Positions 7,807 to 21,988 of a stretch of 64,000 bases of DNA are shown in pieces (the first letter of the stretch is position 1; every line of letters begins with the position of its first letter). The stretch spans positions 8,279,501 to 8,343,500 of the forward strand of contig NZ_CP108484.1 of the NCBI RefSeq assembly GCF_036226505.1. The letters are read 5' to 3'. The notes under the pieces were generated by a model. It saw nothing but the letters and a program-made list of their open reading frames with translations. It was not told the origin of the DNA and searched no databases. A program made the translations under genes and the position numbers. Origin of the DNA: Kitasatospora sp. NBC_01246. Lineage in GTDB: Bacteria; Actinomycetota; Actinomycetes; Streptomycetales; Streptomycetaceae.

Positions 7807-9507
7807 TTACTTGGTGAAGCCGATGTTCTCGTACAGGTAGTCCGAGAGGCCCGGGGCACCGAGGTTGGCGACCGACTTCTTCACACCGAAGATGGCGGGG
7901 CGCTGGTACAGGGTGACCAGGGCGGCGACCTTCCAGGCCTCGGCGTCGGCCTTGTTGATGGCCGCGAACTCGGTCTCGGGGGTCTGGGCGGCGGCGGCGT
8001 CGGCCATCGCCTGGTCCAGCTCGGGGCTGCCGACCTGGCTGTAGTTGGCGCCGCCGTCGGTCTTGAAGTTCGCGGTCGCGGAGCTGGCCGGGAACGGCGT
8101 GCCGATCAGCGAGAACGCCGTCATGTCGAAGTCGTACTTGTAGATGTACTTGTCGAAGAACTCGTTCGACGGGGCGGTGAAGATGTTCACCTTGACGCCG
8201 ACCTGCTGCAGCATCTGGGTGAGCATCGAGCCCTCGTTGGTGGCGATGGTGACGCCGGCCGGGATGACGAACTTGAGGTTGAGCTCCTTGCCGTCCTTCT
8301 TGCGGACGTCGCCGTCCATCTTCCAGCCCGCCTCGTCGAGCATCTTCTTGGCGGCCTCGGGGTCGAACTTGCTCAGGCCGTCCGAGTTGTCCTTGTAGCC
8401 GTTCTGGTTCGGCACCAGGAAGTGGTTGTTCATCGCGGCGGCCGGCCAGCCCAGGCCGGTGAGGTCCGACTTGGCGATGGTCTCGCGGTCGATGGCCTGG
8501 AAGAGCGCCTGGCGGACCTTGGGGTCGGTCAGCATCGGGCTCTTGCCGTTGAACATGAAGTGGCGGAAGTTCGGGCCGCCGGCCTCGCGGACCTCGCCGT
8601 CGGCGGTGGACTGGATCTGCTTGAAGCCGGACGCGTCCGGGCCGTTGTCGTAGAAGTCGATCTCGCCGTTCTGGAACGCCTGCGGCATGGTGTTGGTGTC
8701 CATGGCCTTGTAGACGATCTTGTCGAGCAGCGGCTTCTGGCCCCACCAGGCGGGGTCGGCGACGACGGTGACGGTCTTGGCGGTCTGGTCGATCTTGTCG
8801 AGCTTGAACGGGCCCGCCGAGGTCGGGATCTTGTCGACGTACGCGGTGTTGAAGACGTCCGGGGTGGCGACGTACTTGGCCGGGAACAGCGGCGCGTTGG
8901 CGGCGTTGTTGAACAGCGCCTGCCACTCGGAGAACGGCGACTTGAAGGTCATGATCGCCTGGTAGTCGTCGGCACCCTTGACGACGCTCTCGACCTGGTC
9001 GAAGCCGGTCGTCGAGGTGGCCTTGAACTCCGGGTTGGTGCCGTTCTGGGCCTTCCAGTTGGCTTCCAGGTCCTGCCAGGTGATCGGCGTGCCGTCGTTC
9101 CACTTGGCCTTCGGGTTGAGGGTCCAGGTGACGACCTGCTTGCCGTCCTTGGTCTCGGACTTGGCGTCGAGCAGGTAGTCCTTGTTCGGGGTCTGGGTGC
9201 CACCGGCGTCCGAGTGCCAGAAGGTCGGCATGAGCGCCTTCATGACGTCGGTCGTGGAGACCTCGTTGCCGTCCGCCTCCAGCGGGCTCCACTGGCTGGA
9301 GAGCTGGTCGATCGCCCAGTTGAGCGTGCCGCCCTGCTTCAGGTCGGCACGGTCCTTCTCGTTCATGGCCCGCTGGGTCATCTTCGGGGCCTCGGACTTG
9401 GCGGGAGCGGCGTCCCCTCCGGAGGAGCTGCTGGAGCAGGCGCTGAGGCAGAGCGAGGCGGTGGCGACGGTGGCGACCAGCGCGACCGGGATCCGGGTGT
9501 GCTTCAA
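7807..9507 (-). CDS. Family 5 ABC substrate-binding lipoprotein
   Basis: This 566-residue extracytoplasmic binding protein captures peptides or related solutes and delivers them to the permeases encoded upstream. The signal sequence KHTRIPVALVATVATASLC ends in the lipobox LSAC (Cys near residue 24) followed by a Ser-rich linker. The mature part has the family 5 blocks GGTLNWAID, VTWTLNPKAKWNDGTPITW, DKIVYKAMDT, VRQALFQAIDRETI and KKMLDEAGWK. The start is assigned to TTG at 9507, just before the signal sequence, with GGGGA upstream; the longer frame lacks signal character. It ends in TAA. It is the last gene of the transporter operon, 153 bases after the ATPase gene. Confidence 0.9.
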   Translation of the reverse strand: MKHTRIPVALVATVATASLCLSACSSSSSGGDAAPAKSEAPKMTQRAMNEKDRADLKQGGTLNWAIDQLSSQWSPLEADGNEVSTTDVMKALMPTFWHSDAGGTQTPNKDYLLDAKSETKDGKQVVTWTLNPKAKWNDGTPITWQDLEANWKAQNGTNPEFKATSTTGFDQVESVVKGADDYQAIMTFKSPFSEWQALFNNAANAPLFPAKYVATPDVFNTAYVDKIPTSAGPFKLDKIDQTAKTVTVVADPAWWGQKPLLDKIVYKAMDTNTMPQAFQNGEIDFYDNGPDASGFKQIQSTADGEVREAGGPNFRHFMFNGKSPMLTDPKVRQALFQAIDRETIAKSDLTGLGWPAAAMNNHFLVPNQNGYKDNSDGLSKFDPEAAKKMLDEAGWKMDGDVRKKDGKELNLKFVIPAGVTIATNEGSMLTQMLQQVGVKVNIFTAPSNEFFDKYIYKYDFDMTAFSLIGTPFPASSATANFKTDGGANYSQVGSPELDQAMADAAAAQTPETEFAAINKADAEAWKVAALVTLYQRPAIFGVKKSVANLGAPGLSDYLYENIGFTK

Positions 9508-9600
9508 GGGATTCCCCAGGGAGTGTGCGGAAGGGTGGATGGACCCAGCGGGCCGCCGGAGCGGAAGGTGCTGGAGGGTTGGCACTGCGGACTTGCGGGT

Positions 9601-9636
9601 GGGGCCGGACCGGGTTGTTCCGCCGGGCCCGGCCCC
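9601..9636 (-). terminator. Hairpin between the ATPase and binding-protein genes
   Basis: GGGGCCGG at 9601-9608 pairs with CCGGCCCC at 9629-9636. It lies inside the operon, so it may act as a partial terminator or as an mRNA end that stabilises one segment; without a T-run it is uncertain. Confidence 0.4.
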
Positions 9637-9661
9637 CTTTCGTGGGGGTCGGATCGTGGGG

Positions 9662-11815
9662 TCAGATCACTTCGAGGGCGGCGGCGAAGTGGCAGGCGGC
9701 GACGTGGTCGTCGGAGAGCCTGCTGTTGCCGGGGTCCTCGTCGCGGCAGCGCTGCTGTTCGGCCTCGCTCAGCGCCGGGTGCTTCGGGCAGCGGTTGCGG
9801 AACCGGCACCCGGTCGGCACGTTGGCCGGGCTGGGCAGGTCGCCGCTGAGCAGGATCCGGGTCCGCTCGCGTTCCCGGCGCGGGTCCGGGAGCGGGACGG
9901 CGGAGAGCAGCGCCTGCGTGTACGGGTGGGAGGGCGCGTCGAAGATGGACCGGGAGTCGCCCAGCTCGACGATCCGGCCCAGGTACATCACGGCGATCCG
10001 GTCGGCGATGTGCCGGACCACCGAGAGGTCGTGGGCGACGAACAGGTAGCTCAGACCGAGCTTCACCTTGAGCTCGTCCAGCAGGTTGAGCACGCCCGCC
10101 TGGATCGAGACGTCGAGGGCGGAGACCGGCTCGTCCAGGATGACGAGGCGGGGCTCCAGGGCGAGCGCGCGGGCGATCGAGATGCGCTGGCGCTGGCCGC
10201 CGGAGAACTCCTGCGGGTAGCGGTCGGCGTGGTCGGGGTTGAGGCCGACCATCTCCAGCAGCTCGGGGACGCGGGCGGCGATCCGCTCCTTGTCCCAGCG
10301 GTGCGTGCGCAGCGGCTCGGCCAGGATGTCACCGATCGGCATCCGGGCGTCCAGGGCCGCCATCGGGTCCTGGAACACGATCTGCATGTCGCGGCGCAGC
10401 GCCTTGCGGTCGGCCCGGCCGAGGCCGCGGACGTCCTTGCCGAACACGGTGACGGTGCCGGCCTGGCCGCTGGGCAGGTCCAGGATCTCCAGCAGGGTGG
10501 TGGTCTTGCCGCAGCCGGACTCGCCGACCAGGCCGAGCGTCTCGCCCTCGCGGATGTCCAGCGTGATGCCGTCCACCGCCTTGACCACGCCCACCTTGCG
10601 CTTGATCACGGCGCCCTGGGTGAGCTGGAAGTGCTTGGTCAGCCCGTCGATCTCCAGCACCTTGGGGCGCTGCTCGCGCGGCACGCTCTCCAGCGTGACG
10701 GCGGCCGGGAGTTCGGGCACGGGGTAGATGGTGGCGGGGTCCAGCGCGCCGGCCAGTTCGTGGCTGCGGTGGCAGGCGGTCGGGTGGGTGTTGCCCTCCT
10801 TGACCGACAGCGCCGGCTCCACCTCGCGGCAGCGCTCGACGGCGATCGGGCAGCGGGCCGCGAACGGGCAGCCCTCGGGCAGCTCGACCATCGACGGCGG
10901 GGTGCCCTCGATCGGGGTCAGGGCCCGGCGCCCGGTGTTGTCCAGCCGGGGGATCGAGCCCAGCAGTCCGATGGTGTACGGCATCCGCGGGCGGTAGTAC
11001 ACCTCGTCGACACCGCCGGACTCGACGGCCCGGCCCGCGTACATCACCTGGACGCGGTCGGCGAAGCCGGCGATCACGCCGAGATCGTGGGTGATCATCA
11101 CGATCGCCGCGCCGGTGACGTCCTGGGCCTTCTTCAGGACCTCCAGGACCTGCGCCTGGATGGTCACGTCGAGGGCGGTGGTGGGCTCGTCGGCGATGAT
11201 CACCTTGGGGTCGTTGGCGATCGCCATGGCGATCATCGCGCGCTGGCGCATGCCGCCGGAGAACTCGTGCGGGAAGTTGTCCACCCGGCGCTTCGGGTCC
11301 GGAATGCCCACCACGTCCAGGAGTTCGACGGCCCGGGTGCGGGCCTGCTCCTTGGTCATGTCCTGGTGGATCCGCAGCGCCTCGACGATCTGGGTGCCGA
11401 CCGAGTAGACCGGGGTGAGCGCGGACAGCGGGTCCTGGAAGACCATGCCGATGTCCTTGCCGCGGATCTTCGAGAGCTCGTTGTCGGACAGGCCGAGCAG
11501 CTCACGGCCGCCGAGCCGGACCGAACCGGAGACCTCCGCGGCTTCGGGCAGCAGCCCGAGCACGGCCATCGAGGAGACGGACTTGCCGGAGCCGGACTCG
11601 CCGACGATGCCGAGCACCTCGCCCGGGCGGACGGCGTAGGAGACGCCGCGGACGGCGCGGACCTCGCCGGCCTCGCTGGGGAAGGAGACATGAAGGTCCG
11701 TCACTTCGAGTACGGGCTGCGGCTTGTCCAGCCGGGTGTCGGTCACCGGTCGGAGTCCTTCCTTGGTACCGGGGGTGCTGGTGTCGGGCTGCGGGGGCTG
11801 GAGCGCGTCCGTCAT
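9662..11815 (-). CDS. Fused double ABC ATPase (DppD-DppF type)
   Basis: The 717-residue protein powers peptide-type import. It carries two complete nucleotide-binding domains in one chain. The first has Walker A GESGSGKS, signature FSGGMRQR and Walker B VIIADEPT, then a C-terminal Cys-containing oligopeptide-transporter tail (GCPFAARCPIAVERC). The second has GESGCGKT, FSGGQRQR and LVILDEPV, and a second such tail (GCRFRNRCPKHP). Most family members are two separate proteins of about 330 residues; here they are joined by a linker near residues 365-390. The ATG at 11815 overlaps the permease stop by four bases (ATGA), so translation is coupled. Confidence 0.95.
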   Translation of the reverse strand: MTDALQPPQPDTSTPGTKEGLRPVTDTRLDKPQPVLEVTDLHVSFPSEAGEVRAVRGVSYAVRPGEVLGIVGESGSGKSVSSMAVLGLLPEAAEVSGSVRLGGRELLGLSDNELSKIRGKDIGMVFQDPLSALTPVYSVGTQIVEALRIHQDMTKEQARTRAVELLDVVGIPDPKRRVDNFPHEFSGGMRQRAMIAMAIANDPKVIIADEPTTALDVTIQAQVLEVLKKAQDVTGAAIVMITHDLGVIAGFADRVQVMYAGRAVESGGVDEVYYRPRMPYTIGLLGSIPRLDNTGRRALTPIEGTPPSMVELPEGCPFAARCPIAVERCREVEPALSVKEGNTHPTACHRSHELAGALDPATIYPVPELPAAVTLESVPREQRPKVLEIDGLTKHFQLTQGAVIKRKVGVVKAVDGITLDIREGETLGLVGESGCGKTTTLLEILDLPSGQAGTVTVFGKDVRGLGRADRKALRRDMQIVFQDPMAALDARMPIGDILAEPLRTHRWDKERIAARVPELLEMVGLNPDHADRYPQEFSGGQRQRISIARALALEPRLVILDEPVSALDVSIQAGVLNLLDELKVKLGLSYLFVAHDLSVVRHIADRIAVMYLGRIVELGDSRSIFDAPSHPYTQALLSAVPLPDPRRERERTRILLSGDLPSPANVPTGCRFRNRCPKHPALSEAEQQRCRDEDPGNSRLSDDHVAACHFAAALEVI

Positions 11816-12897
11816 GACGAACTCACGACGTCCCGGGTGCCGCCGGGGAGCGTGGCGCCCCGGCGGGCGGCGTTGCGCTCGGCGAGGGCCCTGCGGCGGC
11901 GCCCCTTCGACTTCGCCCCGCCGGAGGTCGGGTCGAAGGCGTCGCGCAGACCGTCGCCGACGAACGCGACCGCGATGCCGATCAGCACCAGGCAGGTGGC
12001 CGGGAAGTAGAACAGCCACTGGAAGGTCGGCGCGTTGGTGGTGTTGTCGGCGATGATCGTGCCGAGCGAGACGTCCGGGGCCTGCACGCCGAAGCCGAAG
12101 AACGACAGGCCGCTCTCGCCGATGACCGCGGCACCGACCTGGATCACCGTGTCGATGATCAGTAGCGAGGCCATGTTCGGCAGGATGTGCCGGATGATGA
12201 TGACCGGGCCGGGGACGCCCATGTACTTGGCGGCCTTCACGAACTCCCGGTCCTTCAGCGTCAGCGTCATGCTGCGGACCACCCGTGCGGTGATCATCCA
12301 GCTGAACGCCGCGAGCAGGACCACGAAGATCAGCCAGCTGGAGTTGCGGAAGATCGGCGACAGCACGGCGATGATCAGGAAGCTCGGCAGGACCAGCAGC
12401 AGGTCGACGAACCAGGTCAGGCCCTTGTCGATCCAGCGGCCGTAGTAGCCGGCGAAGGCGCCGACGAAGCCCGCGACCACGGTGCTGATGCCGCCCACCA
12501 GCAGGCCGATCACCAGCGACTTCTGCAGTCCGCGCATGGTCAGCGCGAAGAGGTCCTGGCCGCCCTGGTTGGTCCCCCACCAGTGGGTCCCGCCGGGCGG
12601 CGCGTTGAAGGCCATGTAGTCGTGGAAGCGGTAGTCGTACTTGCTGAACGACGGGCCGGCGTACGCGGCCACGAACAGCACGACCAGGATGCCCAGGCCG
12701 ACGAGGGCGAGCCTGTTGCGGGCGAAGCGGCGGGCGGTGAGCCGGCCCCGGCCGGTCCGCTTGCGGGCGGTGGCGGGGGACTTCGGGGCGCTGGCGGCCG
12801 GGGTCTGCGGGACACCGGCCGTGGCGGCGGCCAGGGCGGAGACCGCCTCGCCGCCGGCGGCGGAGGTGTTCGAGGGGGCGGGTTGGTCGGCGCTCAT
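11812..12897 (-). CDS. ABC transporter permease, DppC/OppC type
   Basis: This 361-residue inner-membrane permease has a long Ala/Pro-rich cytoplasmic N-terminus (about residues 1-50), the first helix LALVGLGILVVLFVAAYAG, and the DppC N-terminal and BPD-transporter domains. These include GTNQGGQDLFALTMRGLQKSL and the EAA-loop region FVKAAKYMGVPGPVIIIRHILPN, which docks on the ATPase. It ends with a basic tail. The ATG at 12897 has AGGAGAG upstream. It lies between the DppB-type permease and the fused ATPase, in the usual gene order. Confidence 0.93.
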   Translation of the reverse strand: MSADQPAPSNTSAAGGEAVSALAAATAGVPQTPAASAPKSPATARKRTGRGRLTARRFARNRLALVGLGILVVLFVAAYAGPSFSKYDYRFHDYMAFNAPPGGTHWWGTNQGGQDLFALTMRGLQKSLVIGLLVGGISTVVAGFVGAFAGYYGRWIDKGLTWFVDLLLVLPSFLIIAVLSPIFRNSSWLIFVVLLAAFSWMITARVVRSMTLTLKDREFVKAAKYMGVPGPVIIIRHILPNMASLLIIDTVIQVGAAVIGESGLSFFGFGVQAPDVSLGTIIADNTTNAPTFQWLFYFPATCLVLIGIAVAFVGDGLRDAFDPTSGGAKSKGRRRRALAERNAARRGATLPGGTRDVVSSS

Positions 12898-12945
12898 GTT
12901 CTCTCTCCTCTACGGGTGTTGGGGTGCTCGGCGGGGCGGGGTGCG

Positions 12946-13923
12946 TCAGCGCACCCGGACCCGGGGATCGAGCGCCGCGTAGAGCAGGTCGGACAGCAGA
13001 CCGGCGATCAGCACCAGGCCGGCGGTGAACAGGGCCACCGCCGACGTGGTGTTGACGTCGTTGCGGGTGATCGAGTTGATCAGCAGCTCGCCCATGCCGT
13101 GCCAGCCGAAGGTCTTCTCGGTGAAGGTCGCACCGACGAACAGCAGCACGATGTTGAACACCAGCAGCGGCACCACCGGGAGGATCGCCGTGCGCAGGCC
13201 GTGCTTGACCAGGGCGGTGCGCCGGCGCAGGCCCTTGGCCCGGGCGGTGCGCAGGAAGTCGCTGCCGAGGACGTCGAGCATGGTGCTGCGCTGGTAGCGG
13301 CTGTACAGGGCGATCTGGATGAGGATCAGCGTCAGGCCGGGGAGCAGCATGTGCTCGGCCCGGTTGCCCAGGGCGGCGAAGTCCCAGCGGCCGGCGAACT
13401 CGGCGTCCGTCTCACCGGTGAAGTGGATGGTGCCGGCGCCCAGGAACTTGATCGTCAGCAGCTTCAGGAAGAGGCCGAGCACGAAGACGGGCATCGCGAG
13501 GACGAAGAACGAGGCCAGGGTCGTGAACCGGTCGAAGAACTTGTACTGCTTGATCGCGCCGATGGTGCCGAGCGCGACGCCGCCGACCGAGCCGACCAGG
13601 GTCGCCAGCAGCAGCAGCCGGGTGGAGACGCCGATCCGGCGGCCCACCTCGCTGTTGACCGGCGAGCCGTCGATCGACTTGCCCAGGTCCCCGTGGATCA
13701 CACCGTTCGCCCAGGTGCCGAAGCGGCTGACGATCGGGGTGTCGGGGTTCATGTTGACGTCGTCGAGCGTCTTGCTGATGGTCGCCTTGGCCAACGGGGG
13801 GTTGCGGCCCTCGTAGTTCGCCTGCGGGTGCAGGCTGAGCCCCGCGACGAAGTACGAGAGAGAAGCCGCAAGTATGACGAGTATCAAATAGTTGGCCAAC
13901 TTGCGGAGCATGTAGCGGCCCAA
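12946..13923 (-). CDS. ABC transporter permease, DppB/OppB type
   Basis: This 325-residue integral membrane permease starts GRYMLRKLANYLILVILAASL, the standard DppB N-terminus. It has a periplasmic loop (PPLAKATISKTLDDV and PIVSRFGTWANGVIHGDLG), then GALGTIGAIKQY-like membrane segments and the EAA loop FLRTARAKGLRRRTALVKHGLRTAILP. I use the TTG at 13923 because GGGAGAG sits at proper distance and it restores the family's initial GRY; an ATG at 13911 is the alternative. It is the first gene of a four-gene minus-strand operon. Confidence 0.92.
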   Translation of the reverse strand: MGRYMLRKLANYLILVILAASLSYFVAGLSLHPQANYEGRNPPLAKATISKTLDDVNMNPDTPIVSRFGTWANGVIHGDLGKSIDGSPVNSEVGRRIGVSTRLLLLATLVGSVGGVALGTIGAIKQYKFFDRFTTLASFFVLAMPVFVLGLFLKLLTIKFLGAGTIHFTGETDAEFAGRWDFAALGNRAEHMLLPGLTLILIQIALYSRYQRSTMLDVLGSDFLRTARAKGLRRRTALVKHGLRTAILPVVPLLVFNIVLLFVGATFTEKTFGWHGMGELLINSITRNDVNTTSAVALFTAGLVLIAGLLSDLLYAALDPRVRVR

Positions 13924-14663
13924 GGCGGTTCTCTCCCTCGTGCGGACCCGCGCCCACCGACGGAACAGGACTCCGGGGTCCGTGAGGACGGAGGACCGTG
14001 CGCGGACTGCCGTGGAGCGTCTTTGATGTCGGACGGATGGTCGGAAAGGTCGGCCGCCACTGTCAGGCGGCTCGGATGCACATCTTGCTGACCGGGCGGA
14101 GGGCTGTCGACTGACGCTTTGTCAAAGGTTAGGTAAAGAAGGGTTCAGTCCTTTGGGTGGCAGCCCTCTTTGACCATGGCTTCCTCGGTCCGAGTCGCAG
14201 GCCACGAGGTGTTTTGCAGGCTCAGGGGCTCCCGGAACGCATGGTTCCACCGGTCGAAGTGTTTGTCCGGTTATGTTCGTGCATGTCCCGCCAGTGGCGA
14301 GGATTCGCCAACAAACGGACGCCCTGAGCTGCCTGATCGAGCAGTCATTTCACCGCCTCCCAGCTGTCACTCCGGCCCCACGGGACGGTGTCGCGGGAGC
14401 GTCGGGACGGTTGCGGCAGGGGGGTCTCCGATCGACCTTAGTTGACGTGTGCGCGTCGGGCGCGATCATTTTCGGTCGACCGGGACGGGTGCCCTGGCGC
14501 GCGGTGCATTGGTGCCCCGGAGGCAGGGCCGTGCGGGTGGGTGTGCAACGGAGGTTCGGGGGCACGGAACGGGGCCGGTGCGGGTGACCGAGGGGGCTCG
14601 GTCACCCGCACCGGGGGTGGGGTGTCGCCGGGGGTGTCGTGCTGCTTCACCCCGTGGTCAGGC
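13924..14663. other. Long intergenic region upstream of the ABC operon
   Basis: No gene is supported in 740 bases. The part at about 14095-14290 is richer in A+T than the surroundings and probably holds the ABC operon promoter, but no consensus pair is convincing. A strong terminator for the lanthipeptide operon occupies 14575-14614. Confidence 0.5.
14575..14614 (-). terminator. Terminator of the lanthipeptide operon
   Basis: A perfect stem of 16 to 18 pairs, with arms at 14575-14592 and 14597-14614 around GGGG, lies about 50 bases after the stop of the last precursor gene. It should end transcripts reading the lanL-lanA2-lanA1 operon and can also act on the other strand. Confidence 0.85.
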
Positions 14664-14783
14664 TCAGTTGTCGCCCATGCTCCAGTTGCCGCACTGGAAG
14701 ATGCTGAACGGGAAACAGATGTAGCCGCTGCCGGCCTGCTCCTCGCTGTCGAGCAGCTGCAGGGCGTTGACGTCCTCGGTCAT
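14664..14783 (-). CDS. Lanthipeptide precursor 1 (class IV)
   Basis: The 39-residue peptide opens with the leader MTEDVNALQLLDSEEQ, identical over 16 residues to that of the next peptide. Its amphipathic ALQLLDSEE segment is like the leader helices recognised by class III/IV synthetases. The core is AGSGYICFPFSIFQCGNWSMGDN, given here as two parts: AGSGYICFPFSIFQ and CGNWSMGDN. Ser19 with Cys23 and Ser27 with Cys31 form two SxxxC pairs that could each give a lanthionine ring; Ser35 is unpaired and could become dehydroalanine. AAGGAGAACACC gives a strong ribosome site. It is the last gene of the operon. Confidence 0.88.
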   Translation of the reverse strand: MTEDVNALQLLDSEEQAGSGYICFPFSIFQCGNWSMGDN

Positions 14784-14812
14784 GGTGTTCTCCTTCTGTG
14801 GAGGGGGAGTTG

Positions 14813-14932
14813 TCACATGTCGTTGATGCTCCAGTTGCCGCACTGGAAGATGCTGAACGGGAAGCACATGTAGCCGGTGGTGGTCTGCTCCTCGCTGTCG
14901 AGCAGCTGCAGGGCGTTGACGTCCTCGGTCAT
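14813..14932 (-). CDS. Lanthipeptide precursor 2 (class IV)
   Basis: This 39-residue peptide has the same leader as precursor 1. Its core begins TTTGYMCFPFSIFQ and continues CGNWSINDM. Thr19 with Cys23 and Ser27 with Cys31 give one TxxxC and one SxxxC pair, so the first ring could be methyllanthionine where precursor 1 has lanthionine. Differences from precursor 1 are limited to the first three core residues, Ile22/Met and the last residues. AAAGGAGGTG precedes the ATG at 14932. The synthetase stop codon lies within this ribosome site, so synthesis of the two is probably coupled. Confidence 0.88.
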   Translation of the reverse strand: MTEDVNALQLLDSEEQTTTGYMCFPFSIFQCGNWSINDM

Positions 14933-14937
14933 GGTGG

Positions 14938-17634
14938 TCACCTCCTTTCGGCCGGGTCGGGGGCGGGGAGCCAGAGGCGCGGTCCGCCGTGGTGGAGCCG
15001 TACCAGCAGGCCGAGGGGCCCGCCGAGTCCGGTGTTGTAGCCGACGCCCACCCTGCTCAGGGTGTCGTCGGGGATCAGGAGCAGCCCGTCGTGGACGACG
15101 TGGCGTGCGTGGGCGCAGGCGAGGAGTTCCTCGGCGCGGCGCCGCTGGAGGGGGTCGTCGAGGGCGTCGGCGAGGTCGAGGAGGAACTCGGCGTTGCCCG
15201 CGAGGCCGTGGCAGGCGGCCGGTGAGCTCTGCCACCGCCAGCGGTACACCTCGGCCGCGGCCTGTTCGGCCGTCTCGCGGTAGCGCGGGTCCCCGGTGGC
15301 CTGCCAGAGCCGGATCAGGAAGGTGCCGATGCCGGAGGCGCCGCTGCACCAGTGGGGCGCGTGGGCGGGGGCGTCGGCGCCGCGGTCCTCGACCGGCCAG
15401 GCGGCGGCGCCGTCACGGACCCGTGCGGTGGCGAGCAGCGTCTCGGCGGCGACCCGGGCGGCGTGGACGAAATCCTCCCGTTCGGCGGCGAGTCCGGCGA
15501 GGAGCAGGAAGGTCGCGACGCCGGCGACGCCGTGGGCGAAGCCGAGGTGGGTGATGCCCGCGAGTTCGGAGTCGAAGTCGGCCGGGACGGGCCACACCAC
15601 ACCGGAGCGGCCCTGCGCGGCGGTGGTCAGCAGGTGTTCGGCGGCGGTCACCGCGCGTCGGCGGAACTCCTTGTCGCCGGTGGTCCGCCAGAAGTGGAGC
15701 TGGGCCAGGCCTGCGCCGGCCACGCCGTGGCAGACGTCGGGGTTGGGCCACCGCAGCGGGACGGCGCGGGCCAGCTGGGCGGCGTGTGCGGCGAGGCCGT
15801 CGTCGCCGAGCAGCCGGGCCGCGTCCAGCAGCGCCCAGGCGGTGCCGGAGCGGCCGAAGTGCAGTCCGGGCAGCAGCTGTCCGCCGGCCCCGGCCCGGGC
15901 GGCGATCCACTGCGCCGCCTCGGCGACGGTGGCCCGCAGCCGCGGGTCGGCGCGGTGGGCGGCGGCCGCGGTGAGGACGGACAGGACGCCGGCGGCACCG
16001 TGCTGCACGTTCAGCGGATCGGTCCCCTCGCCGGAGGGGCCGGCGGGCCAGAGCCGTACCGGGTCCTGCGGGGTCATGGTGTCCATCAGATGGGTCAGCC
16101 CGTCGGCGAGCAGCCGTCGCGCGGTCCGGTCGTCCAGGACGGTGCCGCTCCCCGGGGCGGCCGCGGTGGCGGCGGGCAGCGCGGCGAGCGCCGCGCGGGC
16201 CTTCGCCAGGCTCCACCGCTCGTTCCGGTCCTCGGCCATGAGCCCGAGGACGAGCGGGCGGAGGTCGGTGAGGTCCGGGCGGTCGGCGAGCGCGGTGGCG
16301 AGCAGGGCGGCGGTCCGTTCGTCCCGGCCGCGGGCCGCCCCGCGGTCCGGGGCGAGCGCCGGGTCGGTACCGGTCAGCAGGTGGAACAGCACGGCGCCGA
16401 GGCTGTAGAGGTCGGACTCCGGCGCGGGGGCGGGGCCGCTCGGTGCGCCGTCGACGACCTCGGGCGCGCCGAAGCCCGGGGTGTGCAGGCGCAGGACGTG
16501 GTCCCCGGGGCGGGCGAGGGACTCCAGGTCGATCAGGCGGACCTCGCCGTCCGGGGTGACCATCAGGTTGTTGGGGTTGAAGTCGCGCAGGACCAGGCCG
16601 AGTTCGTGGACGGCCGCGACGACGTCCAGCAGTTGCCCGGCCAGGTCGAGCACCTGGGCCCGGTCGGGGCGCAGCCGCTCGGACACCCAGGCGCGCAGGG
16701 TGCGCCCGGCGACGAGCTCCTCCACGAGGTACCGGTTGCCGCCCTGGCCGAAGACCTCCACGACCTGCGGACATCGGCCGAGCGGTGCGAGCAGGGCGTG
16801 CATGGCGGCCTCGTGGTCGAGCAGGTCGCCGGCGTCGGTGCCTTCGAGGACGGCCCCGACGTGCCGGCGGGCCTCCTTGACGACGACCTCCAGGCCGGTC
16901 CGCCGGTCGGTGGCGAGGAAGACGCCGCCCTTGAAGGCGTGCCGGATCGCCTTGTGCACGACGTAGCGGTTGTTCAGCAGCACGCTCGTCCCGGGGGCGG
17001 CCGGGGGAGTTTCGGGGAGCGGGAGCGGCGAGGCGGCCCAGGCGGGCGGGGTGAACCCGGCCGTGCGCCGGTCGCGGACGAAGGTCCCGTCCGGCGCCTG
17101 CAGCATGGGTTCGACCGAACCGTCGTTGGTGAGCCGGGGGGAGCCACGGAAGGCCCCGTAGCGGTAGTGGACCGGGCTGTCCGGCCGGTACCGGCGGTCG
17201 GAGAGGATGCCCGGCCCCGGCAGGTGCGCGGTGGCCCGGTGCAGTTCCTCGGCGAGCCGGCGGAAGTGGTCGTCGTCGTCCGGGTAGACGGTGATGAACT
17301 TCCCGCCGCCGCCCCGGTCGTAGCGGGCGGAGACGAGTTCCGTCAGCCGGCCGGGTGTACCGGCGCACTTGAACGGGGCCCGGGCGGCGACGAGCACTTC
17401 GGCGGCCCGGGTCAGCACCGTCGGGGCGGAGAGCGGGGTGGCGGACACGTGCAGCTTCCAGCCCTGCCGGCGGCCGAGGCCGGCGTCGTCCGGCCGGACG
17501 TGGCACCAGAAGTCCCCGGGAGTGACGGTCCAGCCCCGCGCGCCCTGACGGCGCAGCACCGCCCCGATCAGGTCGGGGTAGAACGTGGCGTACGGATCCG
17601 CCGAGCCCTGACCCGCCGTCTGCCCCTCTGCCAT
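14938..17634 (-). CDS. lanL: Class IV lanthipeptide synthetase (LanL)
   Basis: This 898-residue three-domain enzyme phosphorylates Ser/Thr of the precursor, eliminates phosphate and cyclises with Cys. The lyase domain spans about residues 10-200 (GWKLHVSATPL, APFKC, GKFITVYPDD, ILSDRRY, VHYRYGAF). The kinase domain spans about 220-490: Lys253 in VVVKEA, the catalytic loop LRDFNPNNLMV with Asp351 and Asn356, and the metal site LIDLES with Asp369. The LanC-like cyclase spans about 505-890, with LGFAHGVAG (His701) and the zinc ligands Cys763 (HWCSG), Cys808 and His809 (ACHG). These zinc ligands place it in class IV rather than class III, whose cyclase lacks them. The ATG at 17634 has GAAGGAAG upstream. 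Confidence 0.92.
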   Translation of the reverse strand: MAEGQTAGQGSADPYATFYPDLIGAVLRRQGARGWTVTPGDFWCHVRPDDAGLGRRQGWKLHVSATPLSAPTVLTRAAEVLVAARAPFKCAGTPGRLTELVSARYDRGGGGKFITVYPDDDDHFRRLAEELHRATAHLPGPGILSDRRYRPDSPVHYRYGAFRGSPRLTNDGSVEPMLQAPDGTFVRDRRTAGFTPPAWAASPLPLPETPPAAPGTSVLLNNRYVVHKAIRHAFKGGVFLATDRRTGLEVVVKEARRHVGAVLEGTDAGDLLDHEAAMHALLAPLGRCPQVVEVFGQGGNRYLVEELVAGRTLRAWVSERLRPDRAQVLDLAGQLLDVVAAVHELGLVLRDFNPNNLMVTPDGEVRLIDLESLARPGDHVLRLHTPGFGAPEVVDGAPSGPAPAPESDLYSLGAVLFHLLTGTDPALAPDRGAARGRDERTAALLATALADRPDLTDLRPLVLGLMAEDRNERWSLAKARAALAALPAATAAAPGSGTVLDDRTARRLLADGLTHLMDTMTPQDPVRLWPAGPSGEGTDPLNVQHGAAGVLSVLTAAAAHRADPRLRATVAEAAQWIAARAGAGGQLLPGLHFGRSGTAWALLDAARLLGDDGLAAHAAQLARAVPLRWPNPDVCHGVAGAGLAQLHFWRTTGDKEFRRRAVTAAEHLLTTAAQGRSGVVWPVPADFDSELAGITHLGFAHGVAGVATFLLLAGLAAEREDFVHAARVAAETLLATARVRDGAAAWPVEDRGADAPAHAPHWCSGASGIGTFLIRLWQATGDPRYRETAEQAAAEVYRWRWQSSPAACHGLAGNAEFLLDLADALDDPLQRRRAEELLACAHARHVVHDGLLLIPDDTLSRVGVGYNTGLGGPLGLLVRLHHGGPRLWLPAPDPAERR

Positions 17635-18413
17635 CGTTCTTCCTTCGTCCGTGGAGCCCTGCCGGAGCCGGTCGGCCTCCGAGCGCATCGCTGATCCTGG
17701 CGGCGCGGGGACATCCGGTTCATGGGGGACGACCACGTATCTTCCGGCCGTGAACCCCCATGGGGCCGGTCGACGGCTCGCCGAACGGTCCCGACCCCGG
17801 GCCGGGTCCGGTGGGTCCGCCGGGGCGCGTGGTGCCGTAACGGCCCGTCGGCCGCCACGGCCGGCGGGCGGGGGCGGGTTGACGTGCCCGTTCCCGGGGC
17901 GGAGCGGGAATCGCGCGCAGGTTCGGAAACTGTCGGCCGGCGAGGCGAGGAGTGGGTTGTTCCCGTACCGGGGGGCCGGTTCCGGTCCTGCCCCGGCCCG
18001 ATCGGGCTTTGAGCCGTACCCGGGGGCGGCCGAGACGCCGGCCGGGGAGCCCGGACGGGCCGGGAGATGCCCGGCCGGCGCGGTGCGCCGTCGGGCCTGC
18101 TGACGCTCCCGGCGCCCGGTCCGCGCGATGAACCGCCCGTTCGGCCCGTCCGCGCGGGGCGGGAGGCCTGGTAGCTCCGGGGGAGGAGCCCCCGACCCCC
18201 GGGTGGCGGGGCCGTCCTCGGCACCCACGAGGGGCACCGATCCTCGTGAACATGTCCAGCAGCGTCGGCTCCGCCGACCCACCGGTGCGGCCGGCCCCGA
18301 TCGTCGGCTGTCGGCACACTCGAATCGGCCAACGTCGGGGGAGATCCGGCTGAGGTCCCGCCGCCGGCCGCACCGATTGCCGTACCGTGACCGGCAGCGA
18401 AGTGGAGGACCCT
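17635..18413. other. Divergent region between lanL and the toxin-antitoxin pair
   Basis: No gene is supported in these 779 bases. The lanL-proximal part (17640-17770) carries the CATGGGGG inverted repeat listed separately. The rest is GC-rich with no conserved frame on either strand that I recognise. Confidence 0.5.
17721..17762. promoter_or_regulatory. CATGGGGG inverted repeat upstream of lanL
   Basis: CATGGGGG at 17721-17728 and its perfect complement CCCCCATG at 17755-17762 are separated by 26 bases, about 87-128 bases upstream of the lanL start. The spacing of about three helical turns between arms would suit a dimeric regulator or looping. No regulator gene lies in the locus. Confidence 0.35.
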
Positions 18414-18725
18414 TTGAGCGCCCAGCCCGACCACCTTCCCGCCGCGCCGGCGGCTCCGGCGCCGCGTGCCGCCGCCCGACTGCTCGCCCGTATCCACGCC
18501 GAGCCGCCCGAGCGGGCAGCCAGGTGGCTGCCGGCGTTCGAACGGGACTGGGCCAAGGCGCTCGACGACTCGCGTCAGACCTACGACCTCTCCCCGCTGC
18601 ACCACGTGGTCCGGACCTGGCGGGTCCGTCTGGACAGCGCACCGGCGGTCGACGCGTTCGTCGCCGCCGGCCCGGACGACGGGGACGGGATCGACCTCGC
18701 CGAACTCACCGGGACGGACCGGTGA
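18414..18725 (+). CDS. DUF6247-like antitoxin candidate
   Basis: This 103-residue acidic, Ala/Pro-rich protein has the core RLLARIHAEPPERAARWLPAFERDWAKAL, then TYDLSPLHHVVRTWRVRLDSAP. This resembles DUF6247 proteins of actinomycetes, which often precede small RelE-like genes. The TTG at 18414 has GGAGG five bases upstream and is preferred; the GTG at 18387 is the alternative. Its stop overlaps the next gene's start (GTGA), the classic arrangement of antitoxin followed by toxin. It would neutralise the toxin by direct binding and perhaps repress the operon; no clear DNA-binding motif is visible. Confidence 0.65.
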   Translation: MSAQPDHLPAAPAAPAPRAAARLLARIHAEPPERAARWLPAFERDWAKALDDSRQTYDLSPLHHVVRTWRVRLDSAPAVDAFVAAGPDDGDGIDLAELTGTDR

Positions 18726-18982
18726 GCGACCGCGTCTGGCCGGCCCGGCTGTCCCCGCAGGCGGCCAAGACCTTCGTCGACCTCCCCCCACACGCCCAGC
18801 GGACGGTCCGCGACCTGCTGGACATCGCCTCCCGAACCCCCTGGGGGTGGCCGCAGTGGGACGCCACCGACCTCGAAGGCGAAGACGTCCGCTGCGCCTC
18901 CGTCGGCCAGCTCAGCCTCGTCTACCTGGTGAACCGCCCGGCCGGGCGCCTGCACGTCATCGACATCGTCTGGCTCGGCTGA
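18722..18982 (+). CDS. RelE/ParE-like toxin candidate
   Basis: The 86-residue protein begins VWPARLSPQAAKTFVDLPPHAQRTVRDLLDIA, with a beta strand, two helices and then LEGEDVRCASVGQLSLVYLVNRPAGRLHVIDIVWLG. This is the order expected of the RelE/ParE fold (residues forming a C-terminal sheet with VRxxxVGxxxxxYxV). RelE members cleave mRNA on the ribosome and ParE members poison gyrase; the sequence does not decide between them. It is translationally coupled to the upstream antitoxin candidate through a GTGA overlap. Size and gene order are typical of a type II module. Confidence 0.7.
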   Translation: MSDRVWPARLSPQAAKTFVDLPPHAQRTVRDLLDIASRTPWGWPQWDATDLEGEDVRCASVGQLSLVYLVNRPAGRLHVIDIVWLG

Positions 18983-19272
18983 CAGCCTCCGCGGATCCGG
19001 CCGACCTTCACGGCGGGGGTCGACCTTCACGGCGCCGGCGGCCCGAACGGGCCGCGCCCGACGGTCGCTTTGGACGACGGTCGGCGACGCTCCGGTCCTC
19101 CGGACGGCGACCGGCCGTGGCTCCGTGGACGGTCGGGCGGCCCAGGCCGACGGACCAGAACGACGGCATCCATCGAACCGAAGTGGCGGAACCCCTCGTT
19201 CCAAGTGTTGTAGAGGGAACGGCCGTGGAGCACCGTTCTCGACGTTCCGTCCCCCGAAGGAGCCCGCCGCCC

Positions 19273-20460
19273 ATGGGAAATCACCGCAAACCCAGCCGTC
19301 CGAGCCGGGCCCGCCTCGCTGTCCTCACCACGGCCGTGGCCGGCGGCGCGGTGCTCGCCGCCGGGACGGCGCACGCCGAGCCGGCGCCCACCCTGGCCTC
19401 CGTCAAGGAGCAGGTGGACAGGCTCAACGGGGAGGCCGAGCAGGCCATCGAGCGTTACAACGGGTTCCAGGAGAAGCGGCAGTCGCTCCAGGCCGACGCC
19501 AACCGCATCCAGGACAAGGTCGCCCGCGGCCAGGACTCGCTCAACGAATTGCGCACCTCGCTCGGCGCGGTGGCCGGTGAGCAGTACCGCAGCAACGGCA
19601 TCGGCCCGGGCGTCCAGCTGATGCTCGACTCCGACCCGGCCGGCTACCTGGAGCGCGCGGCCGTGCAGAACCAGGTCGCCGACAGCCAGGCCGCGTTGCT
19701 GAAGCAGGCCCGCGACGCGCAGCGCAAGCTCGACCAGGACCGCGCCGAGGCCACCGCGATGCTCGCCCGACTCGACGCCGCGGGCGCGTCGCTGGGCGAG
19801 GAGAAGAAGCAGATCCAGGCCAAGCTCGCCGAGGCCGAGGCCCTGCTCAACAAGCTCAGCGCCGAGGACCGGGCCAGGATCAACGCCCAGGAGAGCGCCG
19901 AGAAGGCCAAGGCCACCGCCCAGCAGGCCGCTGCGGCCGACCGCGCCGCGCGCGCCGCCGAGCGGCCCGCGCAGGGCGCCGCCACGGCACCCGCGACGCG
20001 CCCGGCCGCCGGAGCCACCCCGGCGGGAGCCGCCCCTGCCGGAACCCCCGCCGGAGCCGCTGCCGAAGCCCCTGCCGGAGCCGCCGCCGGACCCGCTCCG
20101 GCGAGCGCGGGCGGCCGGGCCGCCGACGTCGTCAAGTTCGCCACCGCCCAGCTCGGCAAGCCCTACGAGTGGAGCTCCACGGGACCGAACTCCTTCGACT
20201 GCTCAGGCCTCACCGGCGCCGCCTACCGCGCGGCCGGCGTCAAGCTCCCCCGGATATCCCAGGACCAGTGGAAGTCCGGCCCGCACGTCGCCCGGGGCGA
20301 CCTCCAGCCCGGTGACCTCGTCTTCTTCTACGACGACATCCACCACGTGGGCCTCTACATCGGCGACGGCAAGATGATCCACGCTCCGCGCAAGGGGAAG
20401 AACGTCGAGGTCCTCCCGATCAGCGTGATGCCGTACATGGGCGCGGTCCGCCCGGCCTGA
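19273..20460 (+). CDS. Secreted NlpC/P60 peptidoglycan endopeptidase
   Basis: This 395-residue protein cleaves peptide stems in peptidoglycan outside the membrane (RipA/CwlO-like). A signal peptide (residues 1-36, ending GTAHAEP) is followed by a long coiled coil (about 40-235) rich in KQARDAQRKLDQDRAEATAML. An Ala/Pro/Gly linker follows (about 236-280), then the NlpC/P60 domain (about 285-395). The catalytic Cys is in NSFDCSGLTGAAYRAAG and the His in HHVGLYIG; HAPRKGKNVEV contributes the third residue. The coiled coil probably blocks the active site until regulated. The ATG at 19273 has AAGGAG ten bases upstream. Confidence 0.93.
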   Translation: MGNHRKPSRPSRARLAVLTTAVAGGAVLAAGTAHAEPAPTLASVKEQVDRLNGEAEQAIERYNGFQEKRQSLQADANRIQDKVARGQDSLNELRTSLGAVAGEQYRSNGIGPGVQLMLDSDPAGYLERAAVQNQVADSQAALLKQARDAQRKLDQDRAEATAMLARLDAAGASLGEEKKQIQAKLAEAEALLNKLSAEDRARINAQESAEKAKATAQQAAAADRAARAAERPAQGAATAPATRPAAGATPAGAAPAGTPAGAAAEAPAGAAAGPAPASAGGRAADVVKFATAQLGKPYEWSSTGPNSFDCSGLTGAAYRAAGVKLPRISQDQWKSGPHVARGDLQPGDLVFFYDDIHHVGLYIGDGKMIHAPRKGKNVEVLPISVMPYMGAVRPA

Positions 20461-20827: not shown

Positions 20828-21988
20828 GTGACGGGCAACGACGCGGTCCTGGCCCTGGTGGTCACCACCGCGCTGGGTTTCGACTTCACCAACGGATTCC
20901 ACGACACCGGCAACGCCATGGCGACCTCGATCGTCACCGGCGCCCTACGCCCGCGCGTGGCGGTCGCCCTCTCGGCGGCGCTGAACCTGGTCGGCGCGTT
21001 CCTGTCGACCGCCGTCGCGGCGACCATCGCGAGCGGTCTGGTCGACAGCGCCGACGTGACCCTGGTGGTGGTCTTCGCGGGACTGGCCGGCAGCATCCTG
21101 TGGAACCTGACCACCTGGTACCTCGGCATCCCCTCCAGTTCCTCGCACGCGCTCATCGGCGGCGTGGTCGGGGCGACGATGGCGGCGGCCGGGGTCTCGG
21201 CCGTCAAGTGGCAGGGGTTGGTCTCCAAGGTGATCGTGCCCGCCACCCTGTCGCCGTTCATCGCCGGGACGGTCGCGGTGGTCGGCACCCACCTCGTCTA
21301 CCGGCTCACCCGCGACGTCTCCCAGGGCCCGCGCGACCACGGCTTCCGGATCGGCCAGATCGGTTCGGCCTCGATGGTCTCGCTCGCCCACGGCACCAAC
21401 GACGCGCAGAAGACCATGGGCGTCATCACCCTGGCCCTGATCGCCAACGGCACCCTCCAGGCCGGCGCCACCTCCCCGATCTGGGTGATCACCTCCTGCG
21501 CGATGGCCATCGCCCTGGGCACCTACCTCGGCGGCTGGCGGGTCATCCGGATGCTGGGCAAGGGACTCATCGAGATCGAGTCGCCGCAGGGCATGGCCGC
21601 CGAGTCGGCCTCGGCGGCGGTGATCCTCTCCTCCACCGACTTCGGCTACTCGCTGTCCACCACCCACGTGGCCACCGGGTCGATCCTGGGCGCCGGGGTC
21701 GGCCGCAAGGGCGCCGTGGTGCGCTGGAACACCGCCCGCCGCATGGCGGTGGCCTGGCTGCTCACCCTGCCGGCCTCCGCGACGGTCGGCGCCGCGACCT
21801 ACTGGGCCGCCCACGGGATCGGCGGGACCATCGGCGTCGTAGTGATCTTCATCGTGCTGGTCCTGGCCTCAATCGCCTTCTTCGCGGCCTCCCGCCGGCC
21901 GGCCGTGGCGGTGACGCCGGAGAACGTCAACGAGGCCTGGACCGGCTCGCTGGTCCCGGCCCCGGACGCCGGCGAGGTGGCCTCGTGA
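20828..21988 (+). CDS. PiT family inorganic phosphate transporter
   Basis: This 386-residue membrane protein imports phosphate by cation symport. It shows the two inverted PiT signature repeats: GFDFTNGFHDTGNAMATSI near residues 17-35 and SLAHGTNDAQKTMGVITLAL near 190-208. The paired motifs SSSSHALIGGVVGA and LSTTHVATGSILGAGVGRK are also present. About ten membrane segments span the protein. The length is typical of the short bacterial PiT group. The GTG at 20828 begins at the first membrane segment. It is coupled by a GTGA overlap to a small membrane protein. Confidence 0.93.
   Translation: MTGNDAVLALVVTTALGFDFTNGFHDTGNAMATSIVTGALRPRVAVALSAALNLVGAFLSTAVAATIASGLVDSADVTLVVVFAGLAGSILWNLTTWYLGIPSSSSHALIGGVVGATMAAAGVSAVKWQGLVSKVIVPATLSPFIAGTVAVVGTHLVYRLTRDVSQGPRDHGFRIGQIGSASMVSLAHGTNDAQKTMGVITLALIANGTLQAGATSPIWVITSCAMAIALGTYLGGWRVIRMLGKGLIEIESPQGMAAESASAAVILSSTDFGYSLSTTHVATGSILGAGVGRKGAVVRWNTARRMAVAWLLTLPASATVGAATYWAAHGIGGTIGVVVIFIVLVLASIAFFAASRRPAVAVTPENVNEAWTGSLVPAPDAGEVAS

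Follow-up and report, generated by a model that had tools for sequence, protein, structure and literature searches.

The locus analyzed in this study raises the question of whether one lanthionine synthetase gene and two very short open reading frames make up a complete lanthipeptide system, and, if so, how much of that system is new. The host genus, Kitasatospora, consists of soil bacteria. The genes lanL, lanA1 and lanA2 lie on the minus strand of the window, by which we mean the whole 64,000-nucleotide stretch of DNA that was analyzed, and their coordinates are exact (Table 1). An initial sequence-only reading had given the lengths, coordinates and residue numbers of LanL and the two precursors correctly, the minus strand being unstated there. 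It had also placed the tandem precursors in the lanL operon, and this is supported; the gaps are 5 nt between the lanL stop codon and lanA1 and 29 nt between lanA1 and lanA2. We conclude, with a probability of about 0.9, that the locus is a minimal class IV lanthipeptide cassette, in which lanL and two paralogous precursor genes stand between a single promoter region and a terminator.

Table 1. Features of the cassette (window coordinates) and precursor arrays of sister genomes (coordinates of the respective loci)
Feature	Position	Strand	Remarks
Candidate promoter/operator block, GAAGATACGTGGTCGTCCCCCATGA, 25 bp	17720..17744	-	Upstream of lanL; function inferred from conservation
lanL, class IV lanthionine synthetase, 898 aa	14938..17634	-	N-terminal lyase, central kinase, zinc-dependent LanC-like cyclase
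lanA1 precursor, MTEDVNALQLLDSEEQTTTGYMCFPFSIFQCGNWSINDM, 39 aa	14813..14932	-	Open reading frame with Shine-Dalgarno-like AAAGGAGGT upstream; NF038157 match
lanA2 precursor, MTEDVNALQLLDSEEQAGSGYICFPFSIFQCGNWSMGDN, 39 aa	14664..14783	-	Open reading frame with Shine-Dalgarno-like AGAAGGAG upstream; NF038157 match; tandem duplicate of lanA1
18-bp hairpin, probable transcription terminator	14575..14614	-	Downstream of lanA2; folding energy, inverted repeat, conservation
ALQxL arrays of sister Kitasatospora	L073 6560-8220 (G005:C3:2344559-2346269); L074; L075 4268-5514; L076 6658-7142		Ten precursors in G005 and seven model matches in a second G005 array; eight in G022; four in G061

Conservation of the cassette

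The gene content of the cassette, its family membership, the invariant ligand positions of its enzyme and the conservation of the whole unit are established. A cassette precursor was found in 3 of 70 genomes of the genus and in 3 of 395 genomes of the family, the three being identical in both sets: that of the window, that of K. tateyamensis (one copy) and that of K. xanthocidica (two or more copies, broken up by contig ends). A fourth cassette, with two precursors and a LanL of 83.2% identity, is carried by Kitasatospora sp. NBC_00039 on a linear 853-kb plasmid (NZ_CP108290.1), where NCBI annotates lanL and two ALQxL precursors (WP_331741485.1 and WP_331742630.1). The window copy belongs to an 8.76-Mb contig and lies about 0.47 Mb from the contig end. 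The plasmid location in NBC_00039, as against the 8.76-Mb contig of the window, suggests movement between replicons. A DNA pattern made from the core only gave no further match when 392 order-level and 396 phylum-level genomes were searched. A scan of 84,980 species returned K. tateyamensis and K. xanthocidica; since it used leader patterns only, it could have overlooked cores of this type that follow a different leader.

The dN/dS of lanL among the cassette orthologues is about 0.34-0.37 relative to the window copy, so that the enzyme is maintained under purifying selection. Since orthologous precursors and lanL occur in three other Kitasatospora, lanL shows this dN/dS and curated family cut-offs are passed, the cassette is not a chance arrangement.

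The 25-bp block upstream of lanL is aligned in the upstream regions of three species and is visible in NBC_00039 too. Of the 70 genus genomes searched, just the three cassette carriers contain it, each in a single copy; it has one match in the window and zero in shuffles. The sequence TGGGGG just 5' of the block forms with it an inverted repeat of the type TGGGGG...CCCCCA. About fifty bases past lanA2 begins a hairpin with a perfect 18-bp stem and a 4-nt loop (inverted repeat I8; -45.3 kcal/mol, z -7.4 against shuffles), without a clear U-run. The strong terminator proposed from the sequence thus stands as a terminator-like hairpin. Across the four strains, three pairs of the hairpin show changes in both partners, and paired positions make up 95.8% of the cells, far above slid versions, although with four sequences the shuffle control is modest, three such pairs being reached in 33 of 500 shuffles.

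Neighboring genes and completeness

Conservation among the cassettes is limited to the 25-bp block, lanL, lanA and the hairpin, and the neighbors differ; the flanks of the window, K. tateyamensis and K. xanthocidica have only lanL and lanA in common. No exporter or protease gene attached to the cassette was found at the compared loci.

Several other genes lie near the window copy. A dpp/opp-type (dipeptide/oligopeptide) ABC uptake operon occupies approximately 7807-13923 on the minus strand. It was considered as a dedicated transporter and rejected, because it is not conserved with the cassette. Its distribution is patchy, with strong matches in only four other genus genomes among those searched and no strong match, at the threshold used, in K. 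tateyamensis or K. xanthocidica; lying to the left of the cassette, it can be aligned with other, cassette-free genomes as far as about 14310-14340. Since the operon is absent, at that threshold, from both other cassette holders in the genus set and occurs elsewhere without a cassette, we place it outside the system. An NlpC/P60 protein of 664 residues (18466-20460), which was also considered as a linked gene, has the peptidoglycan hydrolase RipC as its best NCBIfam match, below the cut-off, and has no match near the related phosphate-transporter loci. The PHO4-type phosphate transporter near the cassette (20828-21988 in the window; 15558-16712 of locus L117 in NBC_00039) is 86% identical between the two strains and lies on opposite sides of lanL in them.

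The lack of linked export and processing genes could also mean that the locus is silent, or that it is a decaying remnant of a larger cluster, which has lost its exporter and protease and yields no mature product. In sister Kitasatospora, LanL and the precursors are accompanied by an S9 prolyl oligopeptidase plus an ABC exporter (G005) or by an S9 peptidase (G061); the ven cluster carries venT and venH (PMC2843593), of which the window cassette has no linked equivalents; and in NBC_00039 the second precursor is followed by what looks, by eye, like a piece of a leader whose ALQ motif is degenerate. However, every element, from the upstream block through lanL and both precursors to the hairpin, is intact and has been retained in four strains, and lanL is under purifying selection (dN/dS about 0.35). 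Moreover, unlinked leader peptidases are documented for class III and IV systems, an example being the SflA leader peptidase, which is encoded outside its cluster (PMC10885120). Decay of the locus thus appears quite improbable.

One product or two

The two precursors had been suggested to form a two-peptide product, and this suggestion was not upheld. On that interpretation A1 and A2 would be distinct peptides, both required together. The window and NBC_00039 do each have two precursors, and in K. xanthocidica, where contig ends interrupt them, at least two different ones can be counted. A1 and A2, however, share 91% DNA identity and the same core scaffold, whereas known two-component lantibiotics have dissimilar cores (LanII-57, PMC9576775). 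K. tateyamensis has a single precursor, and sister class IV clusters hold 2 (G042, both identical), 3 (G067), 4 (G061), 8 (G022) or 10 (G005) precursors by NF038157 search, some of them exact duplicates. An obligate pair is accordingly very improbable.

The sequences favor two paralogous variants over a two-component product. The lanA1/lanA2 region contains a 134-nt direct repeat, 90% identical, with a spacing of 149. The identity of lanA1 to lanA2 exceeds that to any ortholog (at most 89% at the DNA level), and the precursor copies of NBC_00039 are likewise nearest each other (92%). That copies within a strain are closest to each other fits repeated duplication or gene conversion. In a published count, 83% of class IV precursors were alone in their cluster, so that 17% were not (PMC7268733).

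Tandem arrays of distinct ALQxL precursors beside one LanL are found in sister Kitasatospora (Table 1). Such combinatorial arrays look more unusual than the window locus itself.

The LanL enzyme

The expected lyase, kinase and cyclase domains of LanL were confirmed by three Pfam matches, all above the Pfam cut-offs: RamC_N (27-210), Pkinase (236-478) and LANC_like (540-883). The zinc ligands are Cys763 (in HWCSG) and Cys808 and His809 (in AACHG), and all three are invariant in an alignment of 31 class IV LanLs of the genus. Likewise invariant or nearly so in these 31 enzymes are K60, H62, R107, K112 and Y157 of the lyase, K253, E275, D351, N356 and D369 of the kinase, and H636 of the cyclase; the roles of these residues are those that we assume from family knowledge and the aligned motifs. 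The class IV equivalog model NF038150 of NCBIfam gives the window LanL 1056.8 bits against a cut-off of 650. Together with the class III score and the three ligands, this upholds the earlier assignment to class IV and not class III. In ThurKC, a class III enzyme, Ser, Phe and Asp occupy the positions of the zinc ligands (PMC10604976).

The chance that the locus is a class III (LanKC) one with labionin chemistry is negligible, since, although the lyase-kinase-cyclase order is identical to that of LanKC, the class III model NF038151 also matches and class III LanKC is among the closest solved chains, the class III score of 483.6 bits stays below its cut-off of 575, the cyclase has all three zinc ligands, and the cores, as read from the sequence, lack the S-x2-S-x3-C labionin motif.

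The sequence-only reading had further described class IV lanthipeptides as few and poorly understood. The few characterized products agree with that description; the scarcity does not, since 815 class IV gene clusters have been counted (PMC7268733) and 54 of the 70 genomes from the genus Kitasatospora encode a LanL above the NF038150 cut-off. The genome of the window has two further such LanLs.

A phylogeny of 30 LanLs groups the three cassette enzymes in a single clade (100/100 support), which is nested in a clade of seven with those of G056/G058 and G055/G061 (100/100). The precursors of G056 and G058 have the leader MTxDVNALQxLDSEE in common with the cassette precursors, but their core is wholly different. 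Leader and enzyme are retained here, and the core is replaced. In the G058 locus (L077, 9887-14972), a LuxR-type regulator with an AAA domain and a LanM-like protein (DUF4135 and LANC_like) lie upstream; both are common to G056, and a class II lanthipeptide locus thus seems to adjoin the class IV locus there.

Precursor cores and predicted rings

Both precursors pass the cut-off of 19 of the model NF038157 for the ALQxL family of class IV lanthipeptides (lanA1, 22.0 bits; lanA2, 20.9 bits), and the genes are therefore already nameable by current RefSeq models. The window cassette agrees with this family, defined by NF038157 and a LanL of NF038150, in leader motif, LanL family and gene order. 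The sequences of A1 and A2 contain Cys and Ser/Thr residues suited to (Me)Lan formation in their cores. In all six complete precursors, which come from four strains, S/T19, C23, S27, C31 and S35 are constant, T17, T18 and residue 30 vary, and two S/T-x3-C units are present, so that each Cys has a Ser/Thr four residues before it. In contrast to the window core GYxCFPFSIFxCGNWS, all seven ALQxL cores examined from other Kitasatospora are without the S/T-x3-C unit, and all seven have a Ser/Thr directly before Cys.

Judging from this spacing and conservation, the simplest reading is that each precursor likely forms two equal, non-overlapping rings. The topology should not be assumed, since overlapping rings have been proposed for venezuelin (PMC2843593) and the prediction is drawn from six precursors in four strains.

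Core and leader strings of the precursors were not found in the papers searched, a set outside MIBiG, subscription journals and supplementary files. Within this scope, the earlier remark that the core is unlike characterized class IV products is borne out, and the core appears uncharacterized.

Comparison with known systems

Venezuelin (VenA/VenL, Streptomyces venezuelae) resembles the window system in its LanL with lyase, kinase and zinc cyclase, and in having no protease gene in the cluster (PMC2843593). It differs in that VenA has four Cys and the window precursors two, in that its proposed rings overlap whereas those of the window are predicted not to, and in the ABC transporter genes venT and venH of the ven cluster, whereas the window cassette has no conserved linked transporter. 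SflA is described as a class IV peptide with a non-overlapping ring pattern (Ren et al. 2020, as cited in PMC9576775). It thus resembles the prediction for the window in ring pattern and class and, according to PMC10885120, has its leader peptidase outside the cluster. The PDLLK processing site of the SflA leader (PMC10885120) is absent from the window precursors, and the likeness is one of descriptions, not of cores. Streptocollin and globisporin are cited as class IV products of streptomycetes in PMC12328550, where globisporin is described as venezuelin-like; globisporin is set beside the window peptides by this description only.

Proposed biosynthesis

Dehydration, the ring pattern, unlinked processing and the biological role are predicted here from the sequences and from characterized relatives. 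LanL would recognize the shared leader DVNALQLLDSEE of A1 and A2, its kinase domain would phosphorylate Ser/Thr residues of the core, its lyase domain would eliminate the phosphate, and its zinc-dependent cyclase domain would add the Cys thiols. VenL, the founding LanL, dehydrates and cyclizes VenA in vitro (PMC2843593). The predicted rings are S/T19-C23 and S27-C31, which would give one MeLan plus one Lan in the A1 product and two Lan in the A2 product. The monoisotopic neutral masses calculated for the full-length precursors are 4477.92 (A1) and 4315.85 (A2), and those for residues 17-39 after loss of two waters are 2626.08 and 2464.01, respectively. The conserved Ser35 might be left unmodified or be dehydrated. 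Leader removal and export would use genes encoded elsewhere in the genome, and the leader may be removed by an unlinked peptidase, as with SflA. A1 and A2 would probably be variants of one product that arose by tandem duplication. The product is most likely a secreted small peptide.

A more far-reaching proposal is that the aromatic core CFPFSIFxC, confined here to a few Kitasatospora, combines a pair of equal forward Lan/MeLan rings, different from the rings of the sister ALQxL peptides, with a new activity, such as that of a surface-active peptide in development or of a narrow antibiotic, and does so without a dedicated exporter or protease. Taken as a whole, we regard this proposal as unlikely.

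Significance

The kind of system is already known and common in the genus Kitasatospora, its family models exist, and NCBI labels are in place on orthologues; the exact peptide seems unstudied and rare. The window cassette would leave the overall picture of the field unaltered. Since characterized class IV products are few, one enzyme acting on peptides with two Cys each would be a convenient test case for the size and direction of the rings formed by LanL. G056 and G058, with a common leader and an unrelated core, would serve as a natural experiment on the extent of core change that LanL tolerates.
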